The translations under genes and the position numbers were made by a program. 64,000 bases of DNA from contig JANQPR010000071.1 in the NCBI GenBank assembly GCA_028285385.1, positions 1 through 64,000 on the forward strand. Reading direction: 5' to 3'. Source of the DNA: Phycisphaera sp. Its GTDB lineage: Bacteria > Planctomycetota > Phycisphaerae > Phycisphaerales > Phycisphaeraceae. The notes beneath the pieces were generated by a model. It searched no databases. It had not been told where the DNA came from and saw only the letters and a list, made by a program, of their open reading frames with translations. This document shows positions 4,919 through 53,600 of this stretch, in pieces (positions within the stretch are counted from its first letter, which is position 1; every line of letters starts with the position of its first letter).

Positions 4919-4937
4919 GCTGGAAAGACCCGAACCG

Positions 4938-7760
<2,823 letters not shown>

Positions 7761-11422: not shown

Positions 11423-11451
11423 GGCGCCGGGTCGGCGGGGCGGGTGAGTGA

Positions 11452-11885: not shown

Positions 11886-11914
11886 AAAAATGAACCCCGC
11901 CGATGAAGGCGGGG
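11886..11914 (-). terminator. Intrinsic terminator of the large PEP-CTERM gene
   Basis: On the minus strand CCCCGCC (6-base loop) GGCGGGG is followed after a few bases by TTTTT. It lies 40 bases after the stop codon at 11954. Confidence 0.75.
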
Positions 11915-11953
11915 CTTGGGTGTGGATGTGTGTGCCGGAGATGGAGCCGTCTT

Positions 11954-37036: not shown

Positions 37037-38548
37037 TCATGTGAGTTTCTTCTTGACTGAAGTGCCGTTGGATGAGGTGCGGACTTCATAACCGAGCTGG
37101 ATCAACTGCTGCCGATGCCCGTCTGCTGCCGCATAATTACGCGCACTTCGCGCTACGTCGATCAACGCGCACAAGCTGGCAACGGTATCACTTTCGGTAT
37201 CCTCCGAGCGATTGTCGTTTGAGGCAAGCTCCCACACCCCTAAGACTTGATCTAAAGCCAGTAAGACACCGTAAGACTCCGCGGCATCTGAACCAGGAGA
37301 TGCAACCCAAGCATGCACGACCGCCATGGCCTCACTGACATTCAAGTCGTTTGCTAAGGCATGCAGGAATGCTCTCACGACTGGATGTTCGGTTTGATCA
37401 ATCTCCTCGGGGACTCCGCCAGATGCGTCGCGTAGTCGCTGGCCAAGTTCCGTCAGCCGCCGAACAGTACCCGCAGATTCAATCAGCCCCTTGGTCGTGA
37501 AGTTGCTTTGCGAACGGTAATGAGATTTGATGAGTTCCATACGGAGGACCGCCGGATGCACGGGCGACCCCGTAGCTTTGCCGGATAGAACATCGCGGAC
37601 AGTGAAGAAGTTGCCCTTACGTTTGGACATCTTCTCACCTTCCACCAACAAGAAGCGGGCATGCATCCAAAACCTGGAAAACAGATCGTTACCGGTAGCT
37701 CCGCAGGATTGAGCAATCTCACACTCGTGATGGGGAAAGATCAGATCCTCGCCGCCAGTATGAATGTCCAACACATCGGTTTCCAGGGCGCGCATCGACA
37801 TCGTTGAGCATTCGATGTGCCAGCCTGGGTATCCAGCCCCCCATGGCGAATCCCATCTCATGATATGTGTCGGATCAGGCTTCCAAAGCATGAAGTCTGC
37901 CGGGTGTCGCTTGAAGCTCTGGTTACTGATGTCGATACGCCCGCCGGCTCCAACCTGTAGAGCCTCGAGCGGGTTGCCGCTGAGTTGACCGTATTGGGAG
38001 AATGACTCAACGCTGTAATAGACTGCACCGTCACCACCCACGTACGCATGTCCGCGCTCGATGAGCGTAGAGATCATCTGCTGAATATCAGCAATGTAGT
38101 CCGTCGCCTTCGGTACTCGCTGCGGGAACTCACTGGCGACCTTTAGTCCCAGCTTGCGGCCATCATCAAGGAATGCTCGCGTGAAGTACTCCGCCACTTC
38201 GTACGGATCGTCTGGGTTGGTTACGGCCTCATCCTCAACTTTGCCAGCCTTTTTGTCGTGCTTGAGCCGGCGCGCCGCCGCCTGCATCTTATCTTCGCCG
38301 ACGCCGTCAGCTGCCGCGTCGTCAGTCATATGACCCACGTCCGTAATGTTCATCACATGCCAGACTTCGAAACCACTGGCCTCCAGAAACCTTCGTAACA
38401 AGTCTGCGAACAGAAAAGATCGAAAGTTACCAATGTGCGCAAAATCGTAGACAGTCGGCCCACAACTGTACATTTTGACCAAGCCAGAATTGAGCGGCTC
38501 AAATGGCGTCACTTGGTTCGTGAGTGTGTTGTAAAACCGAATGTTCAT
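37037..38548 (-). CDS. cysS: Cysteinyl-tRNA synthetase
   Basis: 503 residues from ATG 38548; a GTG at 38560 is also possible. Charges tRNA-Cys. Class I motifs: HIGN at 38-41 and [11 protein letters not shown] for KMSKS. All four zinc ligands of the E. coli enzyme type seem present: Cys29 in YSCGPTVYD, Cys in IECSTMSM, and His and Glu in [11 protein letters not shown], so this is not a zinc-free version. GC and codon use are plainly lower than in the housekeeping genes at 1-22,900. In other bacteria extra cysS copies are listed among genes linked to COG0523 metallochaperones and Zur (Haas et al. 2009). Whether a second copy exists elsewhere in this genome is unknown. Confidence 0.93.
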
Positions 38549-38949
38549 CTTGTCGCTCACACCCGTTCCACGGTCCGACTGGCGTAATAGGTGGCGCCAT
38601 CCTTCCCATTCCGACCCCAGCCCGAGGCTAAATCGCAGGCCGATACCAGCGGTCGATTTCAGTAACACATCGTAGTATCCAACAGTGGCCCGAACGCTTG
38701 GCACACACCTGTCAGTTTGTCTGCAGCCTGCTTAGCGATGCGGCAAACCGAGCCGGGGGCTGGGAGTCCAATGGCGAGTGCGGACGGCGCGTGTATTCGT
38801 GCCGGCGCCATCACTCGGTCGGCACCTTCGCTTCCTTCAGCGCGTGGCAGACCTCGCAGGACCAGGTCATGTTCTAGGTTCGCCCTCGGCCAGATTCTGT
38901 CAAAACTCTGGATCCTGATCTTGAGAAGAGATCCGAATAGAAGCTCGCA
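38549..38949. other. Gene-free stretch upstream of cysS
   Basis: About 400 bases. No reading frame with a credible start was found on either strand, and no palindrome like the Zur-type box at 48801 is visible. Confidence 0.5.
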
Positions 38950-39984
38950 TTACCGTAGTTTCTTGGCGCCTTCGATCACACGTTCCCAATCGAAGGCCGG
39001 GCCGGGGTCGACCTTCTGGGTCGTGATGTGGTGGTGCCCGATTAGCCCTTGGAACTCAGCCTGCTCCCCGGGCGTGAGTACATCCATCCGCACATCGCCT
39101 CCGACGTCGCGAGGGGCGTCGAGTTCGATCTTCGGCAAGACCTTGTTAAGAGTGGCGGTGAGTTTGATCAGTGCTTCGTATTGCGCCTCGGTCAGGTCAT
39201 ACTGCACCAATTCCTGGCCGTGGATCACGCCAACCACGGGCTCGTCGCGTGACGGGGAGTACTCGGTATTGGGGTCCAAGTGTCCCATCCGATCGGCGGG
39301 GATCTTGATCACCGTCTGCTGGTCCTCGGACTCCATGTACCACTGGTTCAGGAGCTCACGGTCGTCAGGCGAGACGGCCCCGATGTTGGCAATCTCGATA
39401 CCAACGGACCGGCTGTTCGAGGTGGTGGCGTGCCAAGCACGCTCCTTGACGTCCAGCGTCTGGTAGATCGTGCCGTCCACATCCAGCAAGAAGTGCACGC
39501 TCAAGCTTCGCATGTCCTGCAGCACCTCGAAGCAGTACTTGCTCGTGCCGCAGGCGTCGTAGTGAATCACGAACTGATCAACGATGTCCTGCAGCTGTTC
39601 GAGTTCCCAAGTGCCGCCGCGCACGGCCTCGATCTCTTCGGGAGTGAAGTCGGGGCGGCCGTTGTTGAAGCGATCAATCCGCATGCCGTAGCGGTTCGGC
39701 GAGCCCCATTCAGGCAGCTTGTCCTTAATCGCATCCCAGCTCGACTGATCAAAGTCCGCGAAACGCGCCTCCACGCGGTATGCGTCGTAGCCCTGCGCAT
39801 CCAGCCACGTCACGACCTTGGCCCCCGTGCGGTAGAACTGACCAGCCACGACGATCTCGTCGCCATACCGCACGGTCTCCTCGCCCGTCGGATTGGTCGT
39901 CTTGCATGCCGGGATCATCATGATCAAAAGTAACGCAAACAGGTTGACGAGTCGGAAACGTGGCGCGGCCGAGCACTCGAACAT
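38950..39984 (-). CDS. Lipoprotein N-acetylmuramoyl-L-alanine amidase (Amidase_2)
   Basis: 344 residues from ATG 39984 (TTTGGAGTTCACGCC upstream). The signal ends in a lipobox-like M-I-P-A-C near residue 27, followed by KTTNPTGEE, so the enzyme is probably lipid-anchored. Residues 130-320 form the amidase domain: FVIHYDACGTSKYCF with the first zinc His, ERAWHATTSNSRSVGIEIAN with the second, VIHGQELVQYD, and GHHHITTQKVDPGPAFDW with the third ligand region. Cleaves the lactyl-amide bond in peptidoglycan. Amidase paralogs recur in zinc-limitation gene sets; this one retains its ligands. Its promoter region is shared with the divergent gene at 40235. Confidence 0.87.
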   Translation of the reverse strand: MFECSAAPRFRLVNLFALLLIMMIPACKTTNPTGEETVRYGDEIVVAGQFYRTGAKVVTWLDAQGYDAYRVEARFADFDQSSWDAIKDKLPEWGSPNRYGMRIDRFNNGRPDFTPEEIEAVRGGTWELEQLQDIVDQFVIHYDACGTSKYCFEVLQDMRSLSVHFLLDVDGTIYQTLDVKERAWHATTSNSRSVGIEIANIGAVSPDDRELLNQWYMESEDQQTVIKIPADRMGHLDPNTEYSPSRDEPVVGVIHGQELVQYDLTEAQYEALIKLTATLNKVLPKIELDAPRDVGGDVRMDVLTPGEQAEFQGLIGHHHITTQKVDPGPAFDWERVIEGAKKLR

Positions 39985-40234
39985 GGCGTGAACTCCAAAC
40001 CGAGTAAAGTACTCCATAGATCGCAGTGTATACGCTCAAAGTTTCGGAGATTGCCGGCGTATTCGCCGCTACCCAAGAGATCGATTCCAGTCAGCGCGGG
40101 GGTCCCAGAGACGTTCGAGACTTCAGACAGGCCATTTTCGACCTCGCTCCAAAGACCCGATCTGGACAATGGGTGTGACGTCACCGCAATCTCAGAGTTG
40201 GCTCAAACCTCGGGACGAAAATCAGGAGATGGCA

Positions 40235-40540
40235 ATGACTGACCAATCGCACACTTGCCCGATGACTGCGTCCAACGTTATCGAGACCTACTTTCTTGAG
40301 CATCGCGGCAAACTTCTCGATATCGCCGCATTCCTTGATCGGGTCGACCGTGCTTCCGGCGCTCCGGATGCGAAGGGTGACTTCCTCATTAAGGCATTAC
40401 ACGAGGGGCTTCGGTTGGTTGCGAGCGATGAGCCTGGTCGGGCCCGGCGGTTACTGGAGTCACTTTCAGATCCGACAAATGAGCCAATCCCTGCTGCCCA
40501 CACCAAGTCTGCCAGCGGCGCGTACGACGAGAAGAGTTGA
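40235..40540 (+). CDS. Conserved-looking 101-residue protein, partner of the TatD-like hydrolase
   Basis: ATG 40235 lies six bases after AGGAG; the ATG at 40229 abuts that site and is less likely. The protein is helical (IETYFLEHRGKLLDIAAFLD, KALHEGLRLVASD), with a short Cys-containing N terminus and a polar tail. I do not recognise a family. Its TGA overlaps the ATG of the next gene (TGATG), so the two are translationally coupled and probably work together. Confidence 0.7.
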   Translation: MTDQSHTCPMTASNVIETYFLEHRGKLLDIAAFLDRVDRASGAPDAKGDFLIKALHEGLRLVASDEPGRARRLLESLSDPTNEPIPAAHTKSASGAYDEKS

Positions 40541-41346
40541 TGCATTACATCGAACCGCACATCCACATGATCAGCCGTACCACCGACGATTACCATCGCA
40601 TGGCGATGGCCGGTTGTGTGGCGTGCACGGAGCCGGCGTTCTGGGCGGGGTACGATCGACCACACCCTGAGGCGTTCGCGGACTATTTCGAGCACCTGAC
40701 CAGCTTCGAACGCGGCCGCGCCGCCCGATTCAGCATCGCCCACCACTGTTGGCTGTGCATCAACCCGAAGGAAGCGGAGGACGTCGCCTTTTCCCGCGAG
40801 GTGATTCAGATCGTTCGCCAGTTCATCGATCGACCTGGCGTAGTCGGCATCGGCGAGATCGGGTTCAACAAGAACTCTCGAAACGAACTGACCATCCTCG
40901 AAGAACAGGTCGCGCTCGCTGTCGAGTTGAATCAACTGATCCTTGTGCACACGCCTCACATGGAGGACAAGCTCAAGGGAACGCGGCTGACGCTGGACGT
41001 ACTGGATGCGCACGGTGTTTCGCCAGACCGTGCGATGATCGATCACATGGAAGAGCATACGACTCGCCTTGTGCGCGATCGCGGTTATTGGGTGGGCATG
41101 ACGATCTATCCGGATACGAAGTTCACCCCACAGCGCGCCGTAGACACCATCGAGACCCTTGCCGGCGATCGCCTCTGGATTAACTCTTCAGCTGACTGGG
41201 CCTACTCCGATCCGCTCTTGCTACCGCAAACACGCTTCGAGATGCAGCGGCGCGGTCACACCGAGGCGATGATTCAGAAGGTGCTCTACGATAATCCGCT
41301 TCAGTTCCTCTCGCAGAGCGGTAAGTTCAAAGTAACCGTAACCTAG
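40540..41346 (+). CDS. TatD-like metal-dependent hydrolase (EboC-like)
   Basis: 268 residues starting at ATG 40540. A TIM-barrel amidohydrolase fold with the metal motif H-x-H at His7/His9 (EPHIHM), Glu in GIGEIGFNK, His in LILVHTPHMEDKL, His in MIDHMEEHT and Asp in NSSADWAYSDP. These correspond to the five ligands of the TatD superfamily. The long conserved stretch SRTTDDYHRMAMAG and EPAFWAGYDR is characteristic of the EboC-like branch rather than of DNase TatD. The substrate is unknown. The gene is coupled to the small upstream gene and lies inside the zinc island, but on the strand opposite the main operon. Confidence 0.8.
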   Translation: MHYIEPHIHMISRTTDDYHRMAMAGCVACTEPAFWAGYDRPHPEAFADYFEHLTSFERGRAARFSIAHHCWLCINPKEAEDVAFSREVIQIVRQFIDRPGVVGIGEIGFNKNSRNELTILEEQVALAVELNQLILVHTPHMEDKLKGTRLTLDVLDAHGVSPDRAMIDHMEEHTTRLVRDRGYWVGMTIYPDTKFTPQRAVDTIETLAGDRLWINSSADWAYSDPLLLPQTRFEMQRRGHTEAMIQKVLYDNPLQFLSQSGKFKVTVT

Positions 41347-41753
41347 ACATCTGACAAGCCGAAATCAACGAACGCAAACTAACGAACTGATCTGCGTCAT
41401 TTGGAATAGGCGTCAACGGCGTCAACGGCGTCAACGGCGGAGCCGCGGCAACGCCGAAGGGTCAAGGGAGAGCGGGCCGCGCTGCAGAGTGTGCCGCTGG
41501 GTATGTTCAAGCAGATCGGGTCGGTCGAGGCGATTAGCAAACGACTGCTCGGATGGCGATCAAACCACCCTCGATTCTCTCAAAACGACTAGCCCAATGA
41601 GCCCAAGGGGATCACTTGCCTTTCAAAATCTCACCCTGTCAACTTGGACCAGACTAACTCTTCAAGCGGACCTGTTTCCGTAACCTCGACCAGCGGTCAA
41701 CTTCGTAGCGATGTTCGAAGTCGCGATGATCCAGCGACAGTTCAAAAATCCAC
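41347..41753. other. Gene-free stretch with a short tandem repeat
   Basis: About 400 bases between the hydrolase and the last gene of the minus-strand operon. It holds three 9-bp tandem units at 41409-41435. A plus-strand frame near 41480-41591 reads QSVPLGMFKQIGSVEAISKR without a start, which could be a gene-end relic. Confidence 0.45.
41409..41435 (+). repeat. Three tandem copies of a 9-bp unit
   Basis: GGCGTCAAC occurs three times in a row without change, followed by GGCGG. Confidence 0.9.
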
Positions 41754-42176
41754 TTACGGGGCATGGCCTGGTGGGGAGAAAAGGTCAGCGTCTTTCGGAT
41801 CTGCGGCGGATGACTCAGGCATTGTCGAAGAGTGGTGCTCGACAATCATCCATCGCTTGCCGTGCCGGCGGTAGACAAAGGTGAACCTAGCTTGCACCCT
41901 AGTGCCTTCCTTAAAGGCAAAGGTGTATACACCGGAGTTGATCGCGGTCTCGCCAAAGGCCCTGATGTTCGCCTCGTCGATCTTTCCCATCGGTCCCTTT
42001 GCCAAGAAACCAACGAAATAATCTTCGATCTCTTCGTGGCTGTGCCGCACTTGGTCGGACATAGTCGGCAGCAAGACGCCACTGTCGTCATAAAGGGCCG
42101 TGACTTTCTTAGGGTCTCCGGTCTGCAGCGCCTGATTCCATTCGTCGAATTGTTCAGCGATATCGTTCTCGATCAT
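41754..42176 (-). CDS. SgcJ/EcaC-type protein resembling iota-class carbonic anhydrase
   Basis: 140 residues, no signal peptide, cystatin/NTF2-like alpha+beta fold (DEWNQALQTGDPKKVTALY; SGVYTFAFKEGTRVQARFTF; RRHGKRWMIVEHHSSTMPE). The HHSSxMPE block at 114-121 is the signature that links bacterial proteins labelled SgcJ/EcaC oxidoreductase to iota carbonic anhydrases, which hydrate CO2 and in studied examples can work without zinc. It is the last gene of the minus-strand run, 65 bp after the COG0523 gene. In a zinc-limitation operon, a metal-independent carbonic anhydrase would replace zinc-dependent ones. The enzyme assignment is an inference from the motif; other NTF2-like functions remain possible. 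Confidence 0.72.
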   Translation of the reverse strand: MIENDIAEQFDEWNQALQTGDPKKVTALYDDSGVLLPTMSDQVRHSHEEIEDYFVGFLAKGPMGKIDEANIRAFGETAINSGVYTFAFKEGTRVQARFTFVYRRHGKRWMIVEHHSSTMPESSAADPKDADLFSPPGHAP

Positions 42177-42241
42177 TTGCTTCTTCTACTCAACATTGTG
42201 ACTAGTTTGTGGGAAGCAATGAGCTGTCGTCCACGACGGAT

Positions 42242-43297
42242 CTAGTTAACGTTCAGCGAGTCGGCGATCTCCTGCCAGTTCAGTGGCCGGTCGATTTCCA
42301 TGAGCATCTGCGCTTGGTCTACGACACCGGGTTTCGTGATCCATTCCATCCGGTTGTCGCGGCGGTGCGCGGAGTGGCGGAACGATATCTCGCCGTTGGC
42401 GATCTCGAGAGACTGCCAGCCGGCCGAGGTGTGAAAGACGCCCTTGAGGCGGAGCACTTCATTGCCGGCGATGCCCTGCTGACAGACGCGCATGAGGTTC
42501 ACGAGCAGCACTTCTTCCTCGAAGCACCGCTCGGCCTCGAGGATAAAGCCGCCGGGGTGGATCGAGGGATCGTGGTGGTGGTGATGATCGTCATCGTGAC
42601 CGTGGTGGTGGCTATGATCAACGTGGTCGTTGTGACGGTGGTCTGTCGGCGATGTGTCCAGCGTTTCGTTTGCTTCCGGCGAGGCGGCGGGAAGGTCGAA
42701 GAGTTCGGCGGGGAGTTGGCCGTGCGTTGTGGTAACGACGCAGAGCTTCGGCGGATCAAGTTGGTCGGCCCACAGTTTCGCGCGATCGATCTTGGACGTA
42801 TCGGTTTGGTCGCAGCGGTTGAAGACCAGAATGTCGGCAGCTTCGCAGAACATGTGGAAAAACGGCATCCGCGCAAACATCTCCTCGTCGAACTCTGGGG
42901 CGCCGAGCAGGACGATAGCGGGGTGCAGGAGGATGTTGAGTTCGTCCTGGAGACTACGGAGCAGGTCGATCACCTGCGCCGGCGAAGCCATGCCGCTGGG
43001 CTCGATGATCAGCCGATCCAGCGCCTGCTCGGAAATTAAACGCCGGATGCACCCGGGAAGTTCTGCAAGCATGGTGCAGCAGATGCACCCCCCGGGCACG
43101 TTCAGGACTTGGGTCCCCGGGGCTTCGGCCTGCAGCGTGGTGCTGTCGAGGCCGACGGGGCCGAAGTCATTTACAAGCACGCCGACTCGCTGGTGGGAGG
43201 CGTGCTCGCGGAGATAGCTGAGGATTGCCGATGTCTTGCCGACACCCAACGGGCCGGCGACGATGTGGCAGGGGATAGATGAGCTGTCTGGTGTCAA
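42242..43297 (-). CDS. COG0523 (CobW-like) GTPase with His-rich loop
   Basis: 351 residues. A G3E-family GTPase thought to be a metallochaperone. P-loop GPLGVGKT at 15-22 (Pro and Val differ from the usual GFLGAGKT), switch region NDFGPVGLD, metal motif CxCC at Cys71, Cys73, Cys74 (GGCICCTML), Walker-B-like IIEPSGMASP, and guanine motif FNRCDQTD (N-R-x-D). A loop at about 220-247 is almost all His and Asp (HNDHVDHSHHHGHDDDHHHHHD), a metal store or transfer site. The C-terminal CobW_C domain (VLRLKGVFHTSAGWQSLEIA) is intact. It precedes the iota-CA-like gene in the operon and is the second COG0523 protein here. Confidence 0.92.
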   Translation of the reverse strand: MTPDSSSIPCHIVAGPLGVGKTSAILSYLREHASHQRVGVLVNDFGPVGLDSTTLQAEAPGTQVLNVPGGCICCTMLAELPGCIRRLISEQALDRLIIEPSGMASPAQVIDLLRSLQDELNILLHPAIVLLGAPEFDEEMFARMPFFHMFCEAADILVFNRCDQTDTSKIDRAKLWADQLDPPKLCVVTTTHGQLPAELFDLPAASPEANETLDTSPTDHRHNDHVDHSHHHGHDDDHHHHHDPSIHPGGFILEAERCFEEEVLLVNLMRVCQQGIAGNEVLRLKGVFHTSAGWQSLEIANGEISFRHSAHRRDNRMEWITKPGVVDQAQMLMEIDRPLNWQEIADSLNVN

Positions 43298-43388
43298 TTG
43301 TGTTCCTGTCTAGCCGATTGATTACCAAATCGGGCAGCTAACGCAACTCGTATGGAGCGCCGTTGGCGCCGAGCAGGCCATGTCCACA

Positions 43389-43598
43389 TCAAGAAGCTTC
43401 CGCGAGTTCGAGCACGACGTTGCTGATATGTGTGACGAATGCCCGATTGTCCGACGGGTCTTGAATCAACACGTACCCACTGCTGACGCAGTACTCCACC
43501 GAAGCATTGCCGACTTCTGACCGAGGCTCGATGATCGTCGCCTTGGCAACCGACTTCTGGACGGTCGTCGCAAAGTGCTGAAGCGATTCCTGAGGCAT
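43389..43598 (-). CDS. Small protein of unknown function, 69 aa
   Basis: ATG 43598 follows GAAAGGTAATGCC. The sequence starts PQESLQHFATTVQKSVAKAT and ends in a strand-like segment (YVLIQDPSDNRAFVTHISNVV). I do not recognise it. Position between hisI and the COG0523 gene, with the same orientation, suggests it belongs to the operon. Confidence 0.55.
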   Translation of the reverse strand: MPQESLQHFATTVQKSVAKATIIEPRSEVGNASVEYCVSSGYVLIQDPSDNRAFVTHISNVVLELAEAS

Positions 43599-43612
43599 GG
43601 CATTACCTTTCG

Positions 43613-43690
43613 TTAGTTGATGAGCGTAAACAAGTGAACACCCCTTGCCACAGCAGCTAAGAGGTAATGATTGGGGCGCGCGATCTTCAT
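43613..43690 (-). CDS. Possible 25-residue peptide
   Basis: ATG 43690 follows GAAAGAACAGAAC. The peptide is MKIARPNHYLLAAVARGVHL then FTLIN, stopping 14 bases before the next ATG. It could be a leader peptide or chance. Confidence 0.25.
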   Translation of the reverse strand: MKIARPNHYLLAAVARGVHLFTLIN

Positions 43691-43716
43691 GTTCTGTTCT
43701 TTCTTGATCGAGGCGG

Positions 43717-44187
43717 TCAGAGCTGGGTCGGATTGGGAGCGTCGCCGTAGACCGCCTTGGGGTCGAATACCTTCTGTGTCTCCGTGAACTCCAGTTGCTG
43801 GCCTGCCTGGTTGCCAACGGGCACGGCCCGGTAGAAACAGGAGCGATAGCCCACATGGCAACTAGCCCCTCCCTGGACATCCACGCGCAGCCAGACGCAG
43901 TCCTGGTCGTCATCAATCCGCATCTCACGGACGCGCTGTACGAGGCCGCTCGTCGCGCCCTTGTGCCAAAGACACCTTCGGCTGCGACTCCAATACACCG
44001 CCTCGCCTAGCTGGATCGTCTGCGTGAGCGCCTCGATGTTCATGTAGGCATGCATGAGCACTTCGCCGGATGCGTAGTCCGTCGTGACCACGGGGATCAG
44101 CCCGTGCTCGTCGAACTTGGGCGCCAGCTCGACGCCTTCCTCTACCTGCTCGATGGTCTGTCTTCGCGAAAACGGTGAAACACTCAT
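43717..44187 (-). CDS. hisI: Phosphoribosyl-AMP cyclohydrolase, stand-alone, altered zinc ligand
   Basis: 156 residues from ATG 44187 (GAGGGAAG upstream). Third step of histidine synthesis: opens the purine ring of PR-AMP. Seen: [20 protein letters not shown], the [19 protein letters not shown] block, R-I-D-D-D-Q-D at 90-96, and [15 protein letters not shown]. The family normally has D-C-D-x-D with the Cys as one of three zinc ligands; here that position (93) is Asp, while Cys110 and Cys117 remain. A Cys at 97 is close by. It lies inside the Zur-headed gene run and is probably the zinc-sparing HisI2 type; a standard copy should exist elsewhere. Confidence 0.9.
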
Positions 44188-44245
44188 TGGCAAACTTCCC
44201 TCGTTATGTGTCACGGATTGATTGCCCTATCGCGGCGAGGCATGG

Positions 44246-44545
44246 TTATTCGTCTCCCGCACCGATGACGTTCGGCCCTTTGCCTGCTCGCTTTTCGTAG
44301 TAGCCGTCGCCCGCCTTGACGTATTTGGCCATGCCTTGCGCTTCGAGGTTTTTGTCGGACAGTTGCTGCCTGGCTCCGGCTTCAGACCACTGCCCCGCAA
44401 TGTGGGGCGGCTGAATCACCCGGCGTACCGGCTGGCCCGTGGTGGGATGAGTCGTCAGCGGCGCATCGGACATCTTCTGCATCACCTCGAACACCTGGCC
44501 GGCCTCGCCGTTGGCCAACACGACCTCGTACACATAGATGGGCAT
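44246..44545 (-). CDS. FmdB-like protein that has lost every zinc-ribbon cysteine
   Basis: 99 residues from ATG 44545, which overlaps the previous stop (TGATG). It keeps the FmdB/zinc-ribbon framework: MPIYVYE start, VFEVMQKMSDAPLT, then G-Q-P-V-R-R-V-I-Q-P-P. Where the family has two C-x-x-C pairs it has Y-E-V-V-L-A-N-G and H-P-T-T-G, and the whole protein contains no Cys. The C-terminal half (KNLEAQGMAKYVKAGDGYYEK) is a polar tail seen in FmdB relatives. By analogy to zinc-free ribosomal or DksA paralogs it may replace a zinc-ribbon protein when zinc is scarce. The partner and function of FmdB itself are not known. Confidence 0.78.
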   Translation of the reverse strand: MPIYVYEVVLANGEAGQVFEVMQKMSDAPLTTHPTTGQPVRRVIQPPHIAGQWSEAGARQQLSDKNLEAQGMAKYVKAGDGYYEKRAGKGPNVIGAGDE

Positions 44546-44904
44546 CACCTTGGCTCCGAAGCTGTATCCGGCGAAACGCCGAAACGATTCAGGGGGGCAG
44601 CGGCGGGCCGTCGTCGGTAGGCGACGACGCCCACGGTGAGTCCAACGGCAGCCGAGAGCAGCCCCCGCAGGCAGGCCATGATCACCCCGCCGCAGCACGG
44701 GCAAGGCGTGAAGATCAAGGCAGAGATCAGGCCACCGCCCAGGCCCTTGGAGGTTGCCCGCCCCAGGCGTGAGGACAGCCAGAAGATTCGATGGTCGTTC
44801 TTATGGCCGCGGCTATCCGCGTGGCCATGATGACTGCCGTGGCAGTCACACGCCGAGTCACAGGCGGTAAGTGCCTGATCCGCCGCTATAGATGCTGTGG
44901 TCAT
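44545..44904 (-). CDS. His/Cys-rich small membrane protein
   Basis: 119 residues from ATG 44904 (GGAGACAGTTGAG upstream). The N terminus has a dense metal-binding stretch at 15-38 (CDSACDCHGSHHGHADSRGH). One or two hydrophobic helices at 53-95 enclose a CPCCGG motif. The tail is Arg-rich and then polar. No family is recognised. It overlaps its upstream gene by 4 bp and its downstream gene by 1 bp, so all three are translationally coupled. Possible roles are metal transfer at the membrane or a transporter subunit; this is an inference from residue content only. Confidence 0.72.
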   Translation of the reverse strand: MTTASIAADQALTACDSACDCHGSHHGHADSRGHKNDHRIFWLSSRLGRATSKGLGGGLISALIFTPCPCCGGVIMACLRGLLSAAVGLTVGVVAYRRRPAAAPLNRFGVSPDTASEPR

Positions 44905-45134
44905 CTCAACTGTCTCCGGCGGAGCAAGGCTACGGCGATGTTGGCAATCAACCACGCCGGCGCGGCAGACAGCTGCAAGTAGTCTCCGATGAAACTGATC
45001 CGGTAGGCGAAAACGCTTGTGATCCAGCGAAGGCTGGCCGCGGTCTGGCCAAGCCACTCGATCGGCAGCATCTTGGCCAGCCAAGCCGGTATCGGATCCA
45101 TGGCAATGGAACGATCGACCTCATTGGTCAACAC
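44901..45134 (-). CDS. Small membrane protein
   Basis: About 77 residues. The start codon is ambiguous: GTG 45134 (or TTG 45131) lies just after GAGGAG, inside the last codons of the flavoprotein gene; an internal ATG also exists. Amphipathic N terminus (PIPAWLAKMLPIEWLGQT), then a hydrophobic segment (SAAPAWLIANIAVALL) and a basic end (RRRQLR). No family is recognised. The 4-bp overlap with the His/Cys-rich gene suggests the two proteins form a unit. Confidence 0.6.
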   Translation of the reverse strand: MLTNEVDRSIAMDPIPAWLAKMLPIEWLGQTAASLRWITSVFAYRISFIGDYLQLSAAPAWLIANIAVALLRRRQLR

Positions 45135-46270
45135 ACACACTCCTCTCCGCAGCAGGACAGGTCGTCGAGGTACATGCCCCAGTTACGGTAATGCTCTAAG
45201 CGTTCAGCAGGCAGGCCGAGGGACGTGGCGATCGCTTTGGCAACTACGGCGAAACGCTGCCGGTACTTGTAGATAAAACAGAACACATGATCGCCATGCC
45301 GAACGGCGGGCCCACACAGAAACAAGCCCGGTACCAGCGTCGACTCGTCATTGTCGTTCAACAGCGGAAACCCATCCTGGCGTCTTTCGAACAAGTCTGC
45401 GACCAACCTGTGGCTGCCTTCAAACCCGCCCGCCAAGAGTGGCGGGATGTCGGTGTGAAACCAGCGGCCGTCGGACGTGGTGACTTCGTACCTGTCATCA
45501 ATATGCATGACCGAGGCTATCAGCGCGTTGGAGAACATCTCCACGTATCGTTCGAACCACTCCTCTTTCATGCGCTCGAGTGAATACGTTGATAACGCGG
45601 CGCTGGGGTCGGAACTCTCTTCCTGCCACGGACACCCTCTATCAAACAGGCGGACTCGTCTGTCTTGATACGCAAGGTGATAAGCCGCGTCGACACCGCT
45701 CTCGCAACCGCCAATGATGACGAACTCGTCTCCTTCGAGCTGTTGATAGCTGCCGATCGTCGCGGTGTGCCGACAGAGCTCGCTGCCGACGAAGCCGTTG
45801 AGGCGGGGGTACTGAAATTCGCCACCCGCCCAGATCACGTGCTTGGCACGCAGTGTTTCTTCGGCGGTGTCGATCAGGAAGTCTTCCCCGTGTTTCGTGA
45901 TGCGTAGGACGCTGGCCCTCTCACGGATAGGCAGATTAAAGAACGCCGCGACGCCCCGCAGGTGTGCCGCGTAGTCTCTACCTGTGGGGTGCTCGACCTT
46001 GAGGCTGAAAGCGGGTGAAACACCGATCGCAATCGAGTTCAGATCGAGCATCCCGATCGAGTTGGTTGCGAAAGACGGGGTGATAAACCGAGTCTCCTTC
46101 GGCCAAGCGGCAAACGATGACCCGACCGTGCGCCGTTCTAGCACGACGGAGTTTTCGACGCCCGCGTCTTTGAGTGCGATCGCCACCCCCACGCCCGCGG
46201 CGCCACCTCCGACGACGACGGCATCGAAAGACTCCGCAGGTCCTGATGTCGTCGCCAGACGTTTGATCAT
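45128..46270 (-). CDS. FAD/NAD(P)-dependent oxidoreductase with Cys-rich tail
   Basis: 380 residues from ATG 46270. FAD-binding GxGxxG is in VVVGGGAAGVG (about 19-29); a second dinucleotide site is in VIIGGCESGVDAAYH; an IWAGGEFQYPRLNGF block and the final LFLCGPAVRHGDHVFCFIYK are like flavin monooxygenases/thioredoxin-reductase-like proteins of the COG2072 type. The C terminus is LDDLSCCGEECVC, with five Cys in nine residues, probably a metal- or redox-active tail. Such flavoproteins occur beside COG0523 GTPases in other bacteria. Role unknown; metal reduction or Cys-tail redox transfer are possibilities. The small membrane gene starts inside its 3' end. Confidence 0.8.
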   Translation of the reverse strand: MIKRLATTSGPAESFDAVVVGGGAAGVGVAIALKDAGVENSVVLERRTVGSSFAAWPKETRFITPSFATNSIGMLDLNSIAIGVSPAFSLKVEHPTGRDYAAHLRGVAAFFNLPIRERASVLRITKHGEDFLIDTAEETLRAKHVIWAGGEFQYPRLNGFVGSELCRHTATIGSYQQLEGDEFVIIGGCESGVDAAYHLAYQDRRVRLFDRGCPWQEESSDPSAALSTYSLERMKEEWFERYVEMFSNALIASVMHIDDRYEVTTSDGRWFHTDIPPLLAGGFEGSHRLVADLFERRQDGFPLLNDNDESTLVPGLFLCGPAVRHGDHVFCFIYKYRQRFAVVAKAIATSLGLPAERLEHYRNWGMYLDDLSCCGEECVC

Positions 46271-46298
46271 GGATCTGATGCGTTCCACGCGTTTGCCA

Positions 46299-46793
46299 CT
46301 AGTGCCTGTGGTCTTCAACCCATACGTGCTCGATGCCGTGGATAGCGTCACGCAGTCTGGCCGCGGCGGCGACATCGGTCGTCTGTTTGGACTTCATCGC
46401 CGCGACCAACAGCTCGTGATGTAGCGCGAGGGTATTGAGATAGGTCTCATACCCTTCCGCCCCTTTCGCGACGGGCTTGAGCTTCTGTGTGAGGAAGTAC
46501 TCGCTCGTCACGGCGATCACACGTGACGCGTGTTCTTCTTTGGCATGCGTCCATCGCACGAACTGCTGCTGGCTCTGCGCGTCGTCCTCGCCCGCCAACT
46601 CGTTCATCCGCTTCATGGCCTTGTCGATAGTGGTCGCATCTTCGTAGAGGGCCTTGATCCGGGCGTCCTCATCGAAGATGCCGCAAGGCACCTGGCAGTG
46701 CGCCTCGGTGATGGAGGCCGACTCATTGAGCAGGGCGACGCCGGCGGCGAGGGCGGAGAGAACCAGTGCGATGGTGGCGAGTGGCTTCAGCAT
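46299..46793 (-). CDS. sodN: Nickel superoxide dismutase (SodN)
   Basis: 164 residues from ATG 46793 (CGGAGCAAGC upstream). The nickel hook His32-Cys33-x-x-Pro-Cys37-Gly-x-x-Asp (HCQVPCGIFDED) is intact. The rest is the expected four-helix bundle (LYEDATTIDKAMKRMNEL, FVRWTHAKEEHASRVIAV, YETYLNTLALHHELLVAAMK). In known NiSODs a leader is cut so that His becomes residue 1. Here the leader is a hydrophobic signal-like segment (residues 5-22), implying export. NiSOD needs neither copper nor zinc, so it can replace Cu,Zn-SOD under zinc limitation. It lies between the ZigA-type GTPase and the flavoprotein. Confidence 0.9.
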   Translation of the reverse strand: MLKPLATIALVLSALAAGVALLNESASITEAHCQVPCGIFDEDARIKALYEDATTIDKAMKRMNELAGEDDAQSQQQFVRWTHAKEEHASRVIAVTSEYFLTQKLKPVAKGAEGYETYLNTLALHHELLVAAMKSKQTTDVAAAARLRDAIHGIEHVWVEDHRH

Positions 46794-46847
46794 GCTTGCT
46801 CCGTTTGGTTTGGTTTGGATTGCGGTGCTGCATAAAGGCATCGCCGA

Positions 46848-48080
46848 CTAACCGGCGTGCACTTCTTCGGGCATGTGCGGATCCCAACTCGGGATCGGAT
46901 CTTCGAACCGAGACCAGTGCTCGGGGCCGGCCGCCATCTCTTCATCCGTGATCAGTGCTGCGTCCAGGCCTGCCTCGATCTTCTTACGGTCCATCTCGAC
47001 ACCGATGAACACGATCTCCTGTCGACAGTCGCCGACTTCTTCATCCCAGAGTTCATCGATCCGCTTTCGGGTATCCGGATCATCTGGCCAGCGATCCTTG
47101 CCCACCGCCGCAAACCAATAACCCGCCCGATCCATCTGTAGCGACGAGCCGGCCTGAGACCACACCCCGCAGTACTGGGGCCGGGAGGCGATCCAGAGGT
47201 AACCCTTGGAACGGATCACGCCGTTCAAGCTGGATTCGGTCGCGTCTATCAATCGCTGGGGATGAAACGGTCGGCGACGGCGGTACACGAAGCTGCCGAT
47301 GCCATACTCCTCGGTCTCCGGGATGTGCTCGCCGTTGAGTTCCTTAATCCAGCCGGGCATCAACGACGCTTCATCTTCGTCGTAGAGACCCGTACCGACG
47401 ACCTGATTCAGGTCGATCCGGCCGCGAGACGTTCGCACGAGCCTAGCGTCCGGATTCATATGATGGAGGATGCCCTCCAGTCGTTCGATCTCTTCGGCCT
47501 TGACCAGGTCGCACTTGTTGATGACGATCACGTTGGCGAACTCGATCTGGTCTGTCAGCAAATCGACGATGGTGCGTTCGTCCTCTTCGCTCACGCCCAG
47601 ATCGCGATCGCGCAGACCCTGGTGACTGTCAAAGTCGCGGAGGAAGTTGGCGGCATCCACCACGGTGACCATCGTGTCGATGCTGGCGGTGTCGCTGAGT
47701 GATTGACCGTTTTCGTCGCGGAACGAGAACGTCGCCGCTACGGGCATGGGCTCGGCGATCCCGGTCGCTTCGATGAGCAGGTGGTCAAACCGGCCCTCCC
47801 TTGCCAGCCGATTGACTTCGATCATCAGGTCTTCCCGAAGCGTGCAGCAGATGCAGCCGTTGGTCATCTCGACCATCTTCTCTTCGGTGCGAGAGAGCTT
47901 CGCGCCGCCATCACGGACCAGTGAGGCGTCGATGTTGACTTCAGACATGTCATTGACGATGACCGCCACGCGCAATCCCTCGCGGTTGTTCAGGATGTGA
48001 TTGAGCACTGTGGTCTTTCCGGCTCCGAGGAAGCCGGAAAGGACGGTAACTGGCAGGCGTTTCGTGTTGGCGGTTGACAT
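46848..48080 (-). CDS. ZigA-type COG0523 GTPase (zinc metallochaperone)
   Basis: 410 residues from ATG 48080 (AGGGAACACTCA upstream). P-loop GFLGAGKT at 16-23, E-V-N-I-D switch region, metal motif at Cys76, Cys78, Cys79 ([11 protein letters not shown]), IEATGIAEP, and guanine motif VINKCDLV (N-K-x-D). The C-terminal domain has [11 protein letters not shown] and an S-K-G-Y-L-W-I-A block like ZigA/YciC proteins, unlike the shorter CobW protein at 42242. Expected role: GTP-dependent delivery of zinc to client enzymes when zinc is low. Second structural gene after the regulator, which supports Zur control. Confidence 0.93.
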
Positions 48081-48113
48081 TGAGTGTTCCCTGAGTCCTG
48101 AATCCAGTTCTGA

Positions 48114-48356
48114 TCAGTCTCCGCACCCGTGCGTGCCGCAGCATCGCGCCCCAAACCTCGACAGCTGATCGGGCTTACGAGCCATGACGATCCCTGCGCC
48201 GATTTGCCTCTGTACCGGTGATTCACGCGGTGTCCGACCCGCGTCAATCGAGGCACGGTCACACAGTTCGCCCCACGTAGTGATCCGCTCGCTCATGGCG
48301 TGATAGACGGCAACCTCGCGCCCGTTCTCTGGGCAGTGGTAGTCATAGGTCGGCAT
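48114..48356 (-). CDS. Second FmdB-like protein, cysteine-poor
   Basis: 80 residues from ATG 48356, two bases after the regulator's stop. It starts MPTYDYHCPENGREVAVYHAMSE, the FmdB pattern, but has one Cys (HCPENG) instead of a C-x-x-C pair. The following W-G-E-L-C-D-R-A-S-I-D region belongs to a known branch of FmdB-like proteins. The C terminus RCCGTHGCGD is Cys-rich, as in that branch. A canonical zinc ribbon is not formed by the N-terminal domain. Function unknown; it may bind metal with its tail. Confidence 0.72.
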   Translation of the reverse strand: MPTYDYHCPENGREVAVYHAMSERITTWGELCDRASIDAGRTPRESPVQRQIGAGIVMARKPDQLSRFGARCCGTHGCGD

Positions 48357-48358
48357 GG

Positions 48359-48751
48359 TCAACCGGCCGTCCGCTCTGACGTGACGCACTCCCCACATCG
48401 TCCAAAGAGCGTCAGCTCGTGCTCTTGGACCTCAAAGCCGGGCGGCACCATATTCGCGATGCCACCTGCGCAACCGTGTACGTCAAAGGCTTCCCCACAC
48501 TCACGGCAGAGGAAATGGTGATGATGCCCCCGGTCGGTCGGCTCGTAGCGCACATCATTGCGGCCCAGTCCCACGGCCCGAACTTCACCGGACTCCCGCA
48601 GGTGTTTGAGATGCCGATAGACCGTCGCGATGCCCAGCGTCGGCACCATGCGGGACGCGAGATTGAGAATCTCTCGGGGGTGCAGGGGACCCGGAGCGCT
48701 GCGGATGACCTCCCCTATGGCACTGCGCTGACAGGTGACTCTGGTGCTCAC
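48359..48751 (-). CDS. zur: Fur-family regulator, probably Zur
   Basis: 130 residues from GTG 48751, chosen because AAAGGAGA lies seven bases before it; the open frame upstream contains the operator. Winged helix at 10-70 with recognition helix ATVYRHLKHL. Regulatory metal residues in HHHHF (76-79), Cys82 and Cys85 (CRECG), His92, His111, and Cys119/Cys122 (CGEC), forming the Cys4 structural zinc and the sensory site. The Zur rather than Fur assignment rests on the content of the operon (two COG0523 genes and replacement enzymes), since the families are not separable by eye. A palindrome 50-70 bases upstream suggests autoregulation. Confidence 0.85.
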   Translation of the reverse strand: MSTRVTCQRSAIGEVIRSAPGPLHPREILNLASRMVPTLGIATVYRHLKHLRESGEVRAVGLGRNDVRYEPTDRGHHHHFLCRECGEAFDVHGCAGGIANMVPPGFEVQEHELTLFGRCGECVTSERTAG

Positions 48752-48800
48752 GCGGATGTCTCCTTTGAGTCGCTGGTCTGATGGGCACGGGCACGCCCGT

Positions 48801-48820
48801 AATGATACTTGATTATCATT
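48801..48820. promoter_or_regulatory. Fur/Zur-type operator upstream of the regulator gene
   Basis: AATGATA, six bases, TATCATT: a perfect 7-6-7 inverted repeat in an AT-rich patch, resembling TGATAAT..ATTATCA boxes of Fur/Zur proteins. It lies 50-70 bases before the start of the regulator gene, where it would cover the promoter of the whole gene run. Confidence 0.65.
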
Positions 48821-49222
48821 TCTCAACAGGAAGCGACGTATTGTGTTTTCGCCTCGGTAGCGGATGTGGAGGGCGCATTCCCCGCGACCCGACAGCAGAA
48901 GTCGACAACGCACTGCACGCTGAAGGCCGACGCTCGATGAAGAGAAGGAAGTCGATCTCGATCCGGCTTGGGCCCGGGGCAACCGAACTCGCACGTCGTA
49001 GCGCATCCGGGGAGATAATCCAAGGAATTCAACGCGGATCGCGCCGGACACATGGCCAGTGCGGTCACGGAACACATAAAGTCGTACGCGGTCGATCCTG
49101 GTCGATCGAGGACGACTTGGGTCGAATCATCAACCTGTGTCAACCCAAGACGGATAGTCCGAAGTGACTGCCGGAAAACGACTTACCGAGTGTCGCCCCA
49201 ATCGCTCAATGGCTCATCTATC
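48821..49222. other. Gene-free stretch at the island edge
   Basis: About 400 bases between the operator and the tRNA fragment. Frames on both strands are short, start poorly and show no coding character. No integrase or excisionase remnant is recognisable. Confidence 0.5.
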
Positions 49223-49450
<228 letters not shown>

Positions 49451-50139
49451 TGTCCAGATCTGCGTTGAGTTCAGCCATCTCGCGTTCGATCTCCGCCCGC
49501 TTGTCGTGCGTCGACGGCTCCAGGTAGTGGCCCCCCATTACGAAACCTTCCGACGCAATGAGCGCTAGCAACTCGTCATCCCCCTCCGTTTCCAGCCCCA
49601 TCGGGTCGCGGTAGCTGACGGGGTCGTTCATCACGTAGGCGTACGCGTTCGGCCCGTCGACGTAGCCCGCCGGGTCGGGGTTCAGCCAGCGTTGCAGCTC
49701 GGGGCTGTAGAAGCGGTGGCGGAAGTGGTAAGCGTCCAACGCTTCCACGTACCGCCCGCCCTGGTGGCCGTGGAGCATCTCGACATCGCTCACGGCGTCC
49801 GCGTCGTCGGTGAAGTCGGCGTCGAGGACGGTGCGGTTGCCGTAGGGGTCGTAGCGGTAGCGTTCCAGGATCGCCCCCGTCTCGTCGGCGACGGCGGTCA
49901 CGTTCATGTTCGCGTCTTGCATGACGTAGACGCGTTCTTCTAATCCACTTGCCAAGGAACTATCCGCGTCCCGGTCCCGCAGGATCAGGCCGTCAATATA
50001 CCCCGGGTCCCAGACGTACGAGGCGTAGACCTGCCCGTTGCGGTGCTCTTCGAGCAGTTGCCAGTTGGACGCGCCGCCGTAGAAATAGTTCTCGTTGGCG
50101 GTGGTGTTTTCGACGAGCCGGCGGCAAGCGAACCATGCT

Positions 50140-50662: not shown

Positions 50663-53600
50663 TTAATAAATCCTACCTGTTCCCGTAACACCATTTACAG
50701 GGGTATTCCATGGTTTTCCAACCTGACGATTTGGGAAGGTGAAGCTGCCATCGTGCAACGCCCCCTCTTGAATCCTCTGTCGAATGTAGTCAGATGGGTC
50801 ACCGCCTGCCTTCTCATACCTTGCGGCATCGATTCCAATCTGAATGGCGCGCTGATCAAAAGGATCATCGCCATAAGCAACCTCGAATGGAGCCGTTACA
50901 AGATCTTTCCATTCGAAATGATCGCCATCTCTGTCCGTATCTTGAAAGATGCCAGCGCCAAGCTTCAACGTGGTGTCGTAGAAATTCGCATGATGCCCGA
51001 CATAGCCAAAGTGAATATTTGCGACGGCGTCGTAGCGGACTGGCGTCTCATACAAAGTTACATAGCGACGCTTGATGTTCCCTTCATCAACCTTATTCAT
51101 CTTGTTCAACTGCGGCTTGTAATCCCAGCGACCTCCCGGCTTAACTAACTCAACAAAAGTTGAATATGAAGTAACGGTCGTCATCGTACCGCCCGGCCCG
51201 GTATTGCCTACAAATTCTGCAGTCTTTCTGTTGTTCTTCAATTCTTCATTGAACCAACCAGTGATATCGCGGCCCGCCGCATTGTTCTCGACGAAGTCGT
51301 TCCACGTCTCCGCAGCACCGCGGAGCAGCTTGTAGCGGAGAAGGTCTTCTCTCCACGTTGACTCACGGTCCCGGAACTGTTCGCCAGGCTGAGATGTCCT
51401 GAACGGGTTTCGGACCGGGAGGTCCGTGTCGTCCTGCGGAGTATCTAAACCCGAAGGATCGACCGTTGAACCAAAGATGTGATATCCGGCATAGCGGTTC
51501 ATGCCGTCTGGGTAGCCCGCCGGGTCGCGGCTGATGAAGCGGCCAAGGTCGGAATGCCAGTAGCGGGCGCGTTGGTGGTGCAGGCCGGAGGCGTCTTCGC
51601 GCAGGCCCTGGAAGCCGACGGTCAGGTCGGAGTTGCTCTCGCCGTCGTCGTCGTCGGTGAAGTCGGCGTCGAGCACGGTGCGATTGCCATAGGGGTCGTA
51701 GCGGAAGCGTTCGACCACCGTCCCGGTATCGTCGGTTAACGCGACGACGCTGTAGCTCTCGTCGGTCAGGGCGTAGCGGCGTTCGTCGAGCGTGCCGTTG
51801 CCGTCGGTGTCGCGATCCTGCAGCAGCAGGGCGTCGATGTACTCCGGCGACCAGACGTACTGGCGGTCGATCGTCGCGCTGCCGCCGCTGGGCGTCACCG
51901 TCTCCTCGATCACTGAGCCCGCGTCGTGGTAGAAGTCACGGGTCTCGGTGAGCGTGCCGCTGCTGTACGTCGCCTCCGACACGCGGCGGTGGTTGGCGTC
52001 GTATCCGTAGGTGAAGGCCGTATTGCTTGTGCCGCTGTCCTTGAGTTCGACCAGCCGGTTCCACGCGTCGTACACGGCGGTGTAGCCCGAGGCCGGGTCG
52101 CCTGGGACCGGGAGTGTGGTGAGGTTGCCGGCGGAGTCGTGGGCGGGCGTGGTCCAGCCGCCGCCGGTGATGGCCGTTACCTCATTGGCGGCGTTGTGGG
52201 TGCGGGTCTGCGTGAGGTCGGCGGTGCCGTCGCCGTCGTCGTCCTGGGTGAGCTGGTCCCAGTTGCCCAGGGCGTTGAGGGCCCAGTCCTGGCTGAAGGT
52301 GCCGGTGCCGGCCTGGATGGCGGTGGCGCCGGCGTTGAGCTCGCCGCGCTCGGTGGCGCTGAGGCGGTGGAGGGCGTCGTAGGTGTAGAGTTCGTCTTGG
52401 GCGACGCTGTTGACCGTGGCGACGGTGTCGTTGCGGGAGGTGCGTTGGCCGAGGCGGTTGTGGGTGTACTGGAGGCGGGCGAGATCGGTCGACGCGGAGG
52501 TGTCGAGCCAGCGCTGGTCGGCGAGTCGGCCGAAGCGGTCGAGGCCGTTGTATGGGTCGCCGGCGTCGCCGTTGGGCTCGGCGCCCTGTTTGAGGTAGGT
52601 CAGTTCGAGGGCGGGCTCGTCGAGGGTGCGGCGGATGGTGTTGCCCAGACCGAGGTAGGCGTAGGTGGCGAGCGTGCCGGTCGTTGCGCTGTCGGTGATG
52701 GATGAGAGGCGGGAGACGTCGTCGTCGATGCCCGCGGCGTAGTTGAAGGTGAGCGTGCGGCCGTCGGGGTAGGTCAGGCCGGTGAGGCGGGAGTGGTTCG
52801 CGCCCGAGGCCATCTCGGAGTAGGTGTACTGGACGCTCGGGCTGGTGGAGGTGTTGACCGCGCCGCCGTGGGCCTGGTACTCGGCGACGAGTTGGCCGAG
52901 GCCGTTGAACTCGCGTTGGACCTGGTTGACGATGTTGCCGCCCGAGTCGGTGTCGTAGCTGGTGAAGAGGTACGCGCGGCCGGCGGAGTCGTAGGCGGTG
53001 TCGATGCGGCGGACGGAGCCGTCGACGCCGGTGCCGAGGGTCGTGACGGCGTCGCTGGTGACCCTGCCGAGGTCGTCGTAGGCGTAGGTGTGGACGTTGC
53101 CGTTGAGGTCGGTCTTGGTCTCGACCTGGCCGAGGGCGTTGTAGGTGTAGGTTTCCTGCTGGGAGGTGCTGGCTGCGCCGGTGCTGCGGTCGGGGTATTT
53201 GATCGCGGCGAGGAGGTCATTGGAGGCCAGGTCGGACCCACTTCCGGGCGTGACGCCGTAGACGTACTCGGTGGTTTGGTCGGCCTCGCCGGCGGGGAGG
53301 TCGGCGGTAAGGGTGACTAGGTTGCCCAAGCCGTCGTAGGTGTAACGGGTCGTGCGGTCGTCTTCGTCAGAGGGGGTGCCGTCGATGTAGGATTCGATTT
53401 GCGTCAGCGTGCGCCCGAGGTCGTCGTACTCGAAGCGGGTGACGGTCCCGGTCGGGTCGGTGGACTCGTAGAGGTGGCCGGCGGGCGTGTAGGTGTAAGA
53501 GGACACGAGCACGTCGTCGGAACGGGTGGGTACGGCACCCGGACGGGCGTAGGCGCTGCCGCCGTTGGTGCCGACCGAGACGTCGGCGGTCTTGCGGTCG

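Follow-up and report, generated by a model that had tools for sequence, protein, structure and literature searches.

The DNA analysed here, called the window, comprises positions 1 to 64,000 of contig JANQPR010000071.1 of Phycisphaera sp. (assembly GCA_028285385.1). From 48751 down to 41754 it carries 13 open frames in a row on the minus strand, among them genes for a Fur-family regulator, two COG0523 GTPases including ZigA, a nickel superoxide dismutase (NiSOD), a HisI paralogue (HisI2) and a protein similar to iota-type carbonic anhydrases (iota-CAs; Table 1). Intergenic gaps do not exceed 91 bp and three overlaps occur (distances in gene order: 2, 33, 54, 28, −7, −4, −1, 58, 26, 14, 91 and 65 bp); with overlaps counted twice, the summed gene lengths amount to 6639 of 6998 bases. 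An earlier note, made from the letters of the window alone, had described a zinc-sparing operon of about 13 genes on one strand. The run was found as described, and the identities proposed there (Fur, ZigA, NiSOD, flavoprotein, Cys-free FmdB, HisI, COG0523 and iota-CA-like) were confirmed by family scores. With a probability of roughly 0.86 we regard the run as a Zur-repressed zinc-starvation operon.

A candidate Zur box shared with zinc-uptake genes

Ahead of the first gene lie two overlapping copies of a box, read on the minus strand as TGATAATCAAGTATCA and TGAGAAATGATAATCA, each 1 mismatch away from a 16-bp palindrome. The pattern TGAKAANNNNTTMTCA was chosen after viewing the sites in the window, at L021, L024 and other zigA loci (L denotes loci, G genomes, C contigs of the own genome, G000) and was then scanned through the 4.42 Mb of the own genome. 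At ≤1 mismatch it gave 9 matches at 8 separate places, compared to 0 for the backward-read control. Exact boxes are strongly enriched genome-wide, with 4 seen vs. 0.12 expected from a first-order model built on 144 kb of own sequence; two of these four, on C78, were known when the pattern was defined.

On C78, boxes precede znuA (PF01297, accompanied by an ABC-3 permease), a MerC-zigA pair and a second flavoprotein-mem1 pair. On C47, an exact box lies on the start of the gene at C47:5748, a homologue of ZepA matching NF040463, 'all3515 family Zur-repressed PEP-CTERM protein', with 256 bits (cut-off 75), and a pseudopilin-like frame carries another box where it starts. The box on C254 lies inside a gene start and is perhaps there by chance. 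The candidate box is common to the run and the znuABC zinc-uptake genes of the own genome, the window site differing by 1 mismatch. Since it is shared with znuABC and the ZepA homologue, and since relatives carry mosaics of the same modules (see below), Zur control and a role in zinc starvation are well supported at the level of sequence. A candidate Zur box is also supplied for planctomycetes, a group that Haas et al. 2009 (PMC2770081) and the 2018 Zur review leave unmentioned in their main texts.

L024 (G000:C78:11000-30000) is a second zinc-starvation locus in the own genome; between 5201 and 13531 it holds the flavoprotein, mem1, MerC, zigA, a PEP-CTERM-like gene, a Cys-free FmdB and the znuABC set, with three boxes. 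L095 (G000:C47) combines between 1265 and 6673 a second Zur-like gene, the ZepA/all3515 homologue with its exact box and the pseudopilin-like frame with its box. At L096 (G000:C120:74000-93000) a PEP-CTERM-like gene (7881-8756) has an exact box at 8844, 88 bp upstream.

We propose that at high zinc the Fur-family regulator or its C47 paralogue would sit on the box at 48803-48825 and block the promoter, and that repression would be lifted once zinc falls. ZigA and the second COG0523 GTPase could then move scarce metal to client proteins. HisI2, with Cys2-Asp instead of Cys3, might need less zinc for histidine synthesis or use a different metal, NiSOD may cover for the Cu,Zn-SOD, and the iota-CA-like protein might give zinc-free carbonic anhydrase activity. 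In this scheme, zinc repression, transcription as one operon and export are predictions, as are the activities of the individual enzymes and the metals they use.

Table 1. Features of the run and its upstream region in the window.
Feature	Position	Strand	Evidence
Candidate Zur box	48803..48825	.	two overlapping 16-bp matches, 1 mismatch each; 51 bp before first gene
Fur-family regulator, proposed Zur	48359..48751	-	PF01475 72.9 bits; HHHH and two CxxC motifs
Cys-poor FmdB-like small protein, CCGTHGC tail	48114..48356	-	PF09723 23.2 bits, below cut-off 34.4
ZigA, COG0523 zinc metallochaperone GTPase	46848..48080	-	NF038288 629 bits, cut-off 600
Nickel superoxide dismutase	46299..46793	-	PF09055 107 bits; HCQVPCGIF after signal-peptide-like start (by eye)
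FAD-dependent oxidoreductase (flavoprotein), Cys-rich C-terminus	45128..46270	-	PF13738 307 bits; PDB 3d1c 242 bits, residues 17-380
mem1, small membrane-like protein (by eye)	44901..45134	-	no Pfam/NCBIfam match; after flavoprotein also in L024, L031
mem2, small membrane-like protein (by eye), His/Cys-rich start, TPCPCCGG motif	44545..44904	-	no family over cut-off
Cys-free FmdB protein	44246..44545	-	PF09723 36.1 bits, cut-off 34.4
HisI2, phosphoribosyl-AMP cyclohydrolase, Asp93 for catalytic-zinc Cys	43717..44187	-	NF000768 154 bits, cut-off 126
25-residue open frame, possibly peptide	43613..43690	-	position and spacing only
69-residue protein	43389..43598	-	no Pfam/NCBIfam match
Second COG0523 GTPase, His-rich loop	42242..43297	-	PF02492 107 bits
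Iota-carbonic-anhydrase-like protein	41754..42176	-	PDB 3h51 119 bits, 7c5x 38 bits; HHSS at 114-117

The similarity of the flavoprotein to PDB 3d1c extends to the Cys-rich tail. Least certain among the 13 genes are the 25-residue and 69-residue frames, because neither Pfam nor NCBIfam gives a family for them and the spacing between hisI2 and the COG0523 gene in the related cluster L038 leaves no room for them. Terminator-like sites on the minus strand were found in none of the intergenic gaps, and one follows the last gene (41603-41591); with 10 sites vs. 6.1 in shuffles, their number in the region is near shuffle level. The Rfam scan of 40000-50000 gave no match, and the sigma-70 consensus gave 1 match, on the opposite strand, fewer than in shuffles.

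Mosaics of the same modules in relatives

Gene order was compared across 61 genomes, i.e. the own genome and 60 relatives; L038 is not among the 61, and L035 is presumed to be the contig of G026. This comparison, suggested in the earlier note, revealed that relatives reshuffle the same modules. ZigA itself is patchy, occurring in 11 of the 61 genomes (own included) and being absent from a genome of the same genus. G024 shows zigA, flavoprotein, mem1, zfHC2, DUF1826, mem2, znuABC and hisI2; L035 zur, fmdB1, zigA, zfHC2, DUF1826, fmdB1, mem2, fmdB2 and hisI2; and L038 zur, a P1B ATPase, zigA, nisod, mem2, fmdB2, hisI2 and COG0523. Shorter versions are fmdB2, hisI2, COG0523 and P1B in G010 and zigA, znuA and znuB in G004. 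In G013 an exact box is followed by zur-hisI2-hemB, and the HemB (PF00490, 461 bits) reads DVALDPYSSDGHDG, a stretch that lacks the cysteines of the zinc-type HemB motif. HemB variants were also noted by Haas et al. (PMC2770081).

An exact box precedes zur in the genomes G026, G024 and G013 and in L038; by locus, those with such a box are L021/L035, L034, L038 and L129. Before zigA, an exact box is found in G030 and, by locus, in L023, and a one-mismatch box in G010; the contig of G041 begins too near zigA for the presence of a box to be judged. The second COG0523 gene follows hisI2 in L037, L038, L128 and L130. L024 and L031 have copies of the flavoprotein in their znuABC clusters, with mem1 kept behind it, and mem2 is conserved in L031, L032, L035 and L038. 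Relatives of the Cys-poor FmdB-like protein accompany zigA in the clusters of G026, G024 and G041.

A similar assembly exists in a different phylum. L078, from an Opitutus sp. metagenome-assembled genome, holds zigA, COG0523, HisI2, FmdB2, MetE, COG0523, an iota-CA-like gene, Dcd and, as judged by eye, CysRS and ThrRS within 17 kb. No box at ≤1 mismatch was found there, nor a perfect A+T-rich palindrome with arms ≥7, a criterion too strict for this box type. The island has three COG0523 genes in all and further comprises a TonB receptor and another FmdB, one that contains Cys.

At L037 (290-5185) a CobN-like protein with His-rich stretches lies directly before fmdB2-hisI2-COG0523. In L027, L028 and L030, from genomes of another family, divergent zur-zigA promoters are devoid of the 16-bp box and contain a GCAAATGGGAATGCG-like stretch; perhaps these promoters carry a different Zur operator.

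Enzymes that may spare zinc

HisI2 scores over the cut-offs of both PF01502 and NF000768. Its Cys of the DCDxD motif is replaced by Asp93, Cys110 and Cys117 are kept, and the three-Cys catalytic zinc site is thus not complete, confirming the lost ligand reported earlier. According to PMC8102479, this Cys, which forms the zinc site together with two other cysteines, is universally conserved. In a tree of 25 different sequences, a selection from the HisI matches found, the Asp form occurs in 11, namely 7 in a 100/100 clade and four further ones. Members of the tight clade come from four or more genera of the family (own, G010, G024, G026), and a single clade of all Asp forms is not rejected (approximately unbiased test, p-AU 0.24). 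A canonical HisI is encoded on C35, supporting the replacement proposed for this enzyme; G010, G024 and G026 likewise have a second, more distant HisI, the own copy being the only one read and canonical. G012, G013 and G016 (94-96% complete) each show a single HisI match, which is the Asp form. Because it is the sole HisI found in 3 of 61 genomes, the Asp form is probably functional. The tight clade is accompanied by zigA in 3 of 3 relatives (P = 0.0035), and HisI2 is a strong candidate for a new member of the zinc-sparing set.

The NiSOD exceeds the cut-off of PF09055 and shows the HCxxPCGx[YF] hook after a leader recognised by eye, with Phe at the usual Tyr position both in the window and in L038. 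Its score against the TIGR02753 equivalog is 42.7 bits, with a cut-off of 90. The L038 enzyme is 76% identical and occupies the same place in its cluster. PF09055 was found in 8 of the 61 genomes, and zigA accompanies it in 4 of the 7 relatives concerned (P = 0.011); two of these 7 other NiSODs show a weak 2-mismatch site. The own genome encodes a Cu,Zn-SOD on C184 and a Fe/Mn-SOD on C248. Matches to Cu,Zn-SOD occur in only 2 of 10 zigA relatives (G010, G023), which speaks against a general rule, and in G013 the NiSOD and Cu,Zn-SOD genes lie back to back. Since the own genome has a Cu,Zn-SOD, NiSOD could possibly stand in for it. As a new member of the set, NiSOD has a moderate to weak case.

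For the iota-CA-like protein, the alignment with 3h51 covers residues 5-125, whereas that with the iota-CA 7c5x is limited to 70-125. It resembles the iota-CAs of Hirakawa et al. 2021 (PMC8132391) in its C-terminal HHSS motif, which is aligned with 7c5x. Thr38 and Tyr53 are invariant in three rows, outside the part covered by 7c5x, and may correspond to the Thr and Tyr that this paper describes as essential in COG4337 enzymes. The window protein differs in being nearest to 3h51, on the COG4875 side, rather than to the COG4337 proteins shown to be metal-free, in having no signal-peptide-like start (by eye) and in belonging to a Zur-type operon. Members of the COG4875 side have been described with Mn or assumed to bind Zn (PMC8132391), and because 3h51 is likened to that side, metal independence of the window protein is only a possibility. 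The gene occurs in 4 of 61 genomes, and zigA is present in 3 of 3 such relatives (P = 0.0035). Each of these three matches contains a TGA, which was taken as gene end; the L126 stretch was read without stop. In L078 the gene lies beside COG0523, next to Dcd and less than 5 kb from the Asp-form HisI2 and Cys-free FmdB. A beta-CA was not found in the own genome, where alpha- and gamma-CAs were not searched for, leaving the proposed replacement of a carbonic anhydrase unproven. The case for the iota-CA as a new member is moderate.

At L125 (G055, 3110-4733) and L126 (G043, 3910-5329) a tyrosine recombinase gene that resembles an integron integrase by eye either lies next to the iota-CA-like gene or is overlapped by it at its end, and the flanks of the two loci are nearly identical.

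Cys-free FmdB was considered as a zinc-sparing marker and rejected, since it is common away from zinc genes. Of 48 loci retrieved by means of a Cys-free profile, 45 have the Cys-free form (exceptions L039, L051, L082); this sample leans towards such forms because the query itself is Cys-free. Zinc-starvation genes were near FmdB, within fetched flanks of up to 10 kb, in 7 of the 48 (L035, L036, L037, L038, L046, L050, L078), or in 14 if pseudopilin, HemB, MerC and P1B matches are counted as well. With FmdB profile A1, only two copies, both Cys-free, were found in the own genome. The earlier claim of a zinc-sparing operon is supported for Zur, zinc starvation and HisI and unsupported for FmdB, the SOD being possible and the carbonic anhydrase unproven. 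The genome search for standard copies proposed alongside it yielded HisI and Cu,Zn-SOD, no beta-CA and Cys-free FmdB only.

Alternative readings, known systems and neighbouring genes

A number of observations weigh against a Zur-repressed zinc-starvation operon. Zinc-dependent repression and expression of the run are deduced from sequence. One-mismatch boxes, the class of the window box, are not enriched genome-wide (5 seen vs. 5.2 expected), and it is the position of the window box that gives it weight (chance ~1e-4 per 100 bp). No box at ≤1 mismatch was found close to zigA in G004, G038, G043 and G055, and the exact box of G023 is 3.3 kb upstream of zur, heading same-strand frames that end in zur-zigA. 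The regulator scores best, far below cut-off, with PerR models of NCBIfam, and Zur NF008646 gives only 22 bits. Asp65 and Cys79, presumably ligands in ScZur, align with Arg and Thr, the His residues being kept. A Cd/Zn-type P1B ATPase lies inside the clusters of several relatives, which is odd for pure starvation. NiSOD is inside the operon only in the window and L038 and elsewhere not beside zigA; 5 of the 7 NiSOD relatives show no Cu,Zn-SOD match and 2 (G010, G013) have one, which counts against the SOD part of the replacement. The Asp form of HisI occurs with zigA in 3 of 6 genomes among the 60 relatives (P = 0.052). The iota-CA genes of relatives are on other contigs than zigA, with no box at ≤1 mismatch by them except for one 3 kb away in G041.

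It is quite unlikely that the regulator senses nickel (Nur-like), iron or peroxide and that the run forms a mixed operon for oxidative stress and metals, centred on NiSOD. The NiSOD genes in the run and L038, the flavoprotein, and PerR as top solved relative with actinobacterial Zur just behind would fit this idea. The regulator has both structural-zinc motifs of the Fur family (CREC at 82, CGEC at 119), and its ligands do not by themselves settle which metal is sensed; cyanobacterial Zur uses other ligands too, according to PMC10957091. However, the same box precedes znuABC and the ZepA homologue, and in relatives the zur-like genes are accompanied by zigA, HisI2 and a HemB that lacks the zinc cysteines. 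Within 1.5 kb of the NiSODs of the 7 relatives, no box was found at ≤1 mismatch. That the run serves detoxification or metal excess (MerC, P1B ATPase, flavoprotein), with the COG0523 proteins as buffers, is very improbable. It would account for the L038 ATPase (Cd-family TIGR01512, 442 bits; homologues in L036, L034 and L128) and for MerC on C78 (80 bits; weaker copies in L033 and L129), whereas the ZnuABC importer is present in the same clusters under the same box. Efflux genes can moreover belong to a Zur regulon, since the Zur targets tabulated in the Zur review include an ATPase and a CDF effluxer (row taken as Corynebacterium glutamicum).

Under Zur control, HisI2, NiSOD and iota-CA could also serve ends other than zinc sparing, being present for dose, by chance or through transfer, with HisI2 still using zinc via Cys2-Asp. 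This is possible, if less likely than not. The unlinked NiSODs of 7 of 60 relatives, 5 of them lacking a Cu,Zn-SOD match, and the metals attributed to COG4875-side iota-CAs speak for it; the change of a catalytic-zinc Cys described as universally conserved in the 100/100 clade and four further sequences, as well as the HemB without zinc cysteines in a zur-hisI2-hemB operon, speak against it. We tentatively consider, at slightly less than even odds, that PVC bacteria hold a patchy, mosaic zinc-sparing kit under Zur, with a Cys2-Asp HisI on a non-zinc metal (the sole HisI in some species), NiSOD for Cu,Zn-SOD and a zinc-free iota-CA. If true, this would lengthen the list of enzymes swapped out by bacteria under zinc shortage, offer a physiological reason for iota-type carbonic anhydrases in some bacteria and provide a naturally occurring HisI whose catalytic metal site is altered.

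The run is a variant of the known COG0523/Zur zinc-sparing cluster with HisI2, iota-CA and NiSOD as candidate new members. ZigA exceeds the cut-off of the NCBIfam equivalog of the zinc metallochaperone, presumably described from Acinetobacter, and its genomic partners differ from those we take to be the Acinetobacter ones. The beta- and gamma-proteobacterial clusters of Haas et al. 2009 (PMC2770081) likewise have COG0523, zur, znuABC, DUF1826 (here in the loci of relatives) and HisI and HemB paralogues under Zur sites. In contrast, their HisI paralogues keep the zinc residues, of which one is lost here, and their carbonic anhydrase is gamma-class. That main text has no match for FmdB or planctomycetes and one, in another context, for superoxide dismutase. 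The zepA-zur neighbourhoods of PVC and other bacteria (Sarasa-Buisan et al. 2024, PMC10957091) are similar in a Fur-family gene near zepA, COG0523 and PEP-CTERM proteins, and have palindromic sites of 15 and 16 bp; in the own genome, the zepA homologue is on another contig than the run. The main text of that paper gave no match for carbonic anhydrase or superoxide dismutase, HisI not being looked for. The combination of NiSOD, iota-CA and zinc-ligand-less HisI was not found in the literature searched, which included few subscription papers. None of the three was described in a Zur operon in the passages considered of PMC2770081, PMC6103462, PMC8132391, PMC8102479 and PMC10957091. Searches for iota carbonic anhydrase with zinc limitation gave no match, those for nickel superoxide dismutase with Zur and zinc gave matches off topic by title, and for sodN with zinc limitation or Zur none among the matches listed names sodN. 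One match for planctomycetes with Zur concerns ribosomal protein S4, and one for iota-carbonic anhydrase with Zur concerns a gamma-CA of Pseudomonas aeruginosa.

L022 (G023, 9127-14159, minus strand) shows a small His-rich frame, a pseudopilin-like frame and two PEP-CTERM-like frames followed by zur-zigA, with the exact box at 14133; these frames through zur-zigA are perhaps one Zur operon.

Downstream of the run, on the minus strand between 37037 and 40017, the window encodes CysRS (37037-38704) and an N-acetylmuramoyl-L-alanine amidase (38950-40017). Both were excluded as operon members because of two intervening plus-strand frames (40169-41346), and their upstream regions showed no box at ≤2 mismatches. 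The second CysRS of the own genome is split over C41 and C9, and both copies keep what we take to be the zinc ligands. The two enzymes are of types named by Haas et al. (PMC2770081). Elsewhere in the window, a minus-strand frame of 3557 residues (50663-61336) looks by eye like a YD/RHS-repeat protein that starts with LamG-like repeats.

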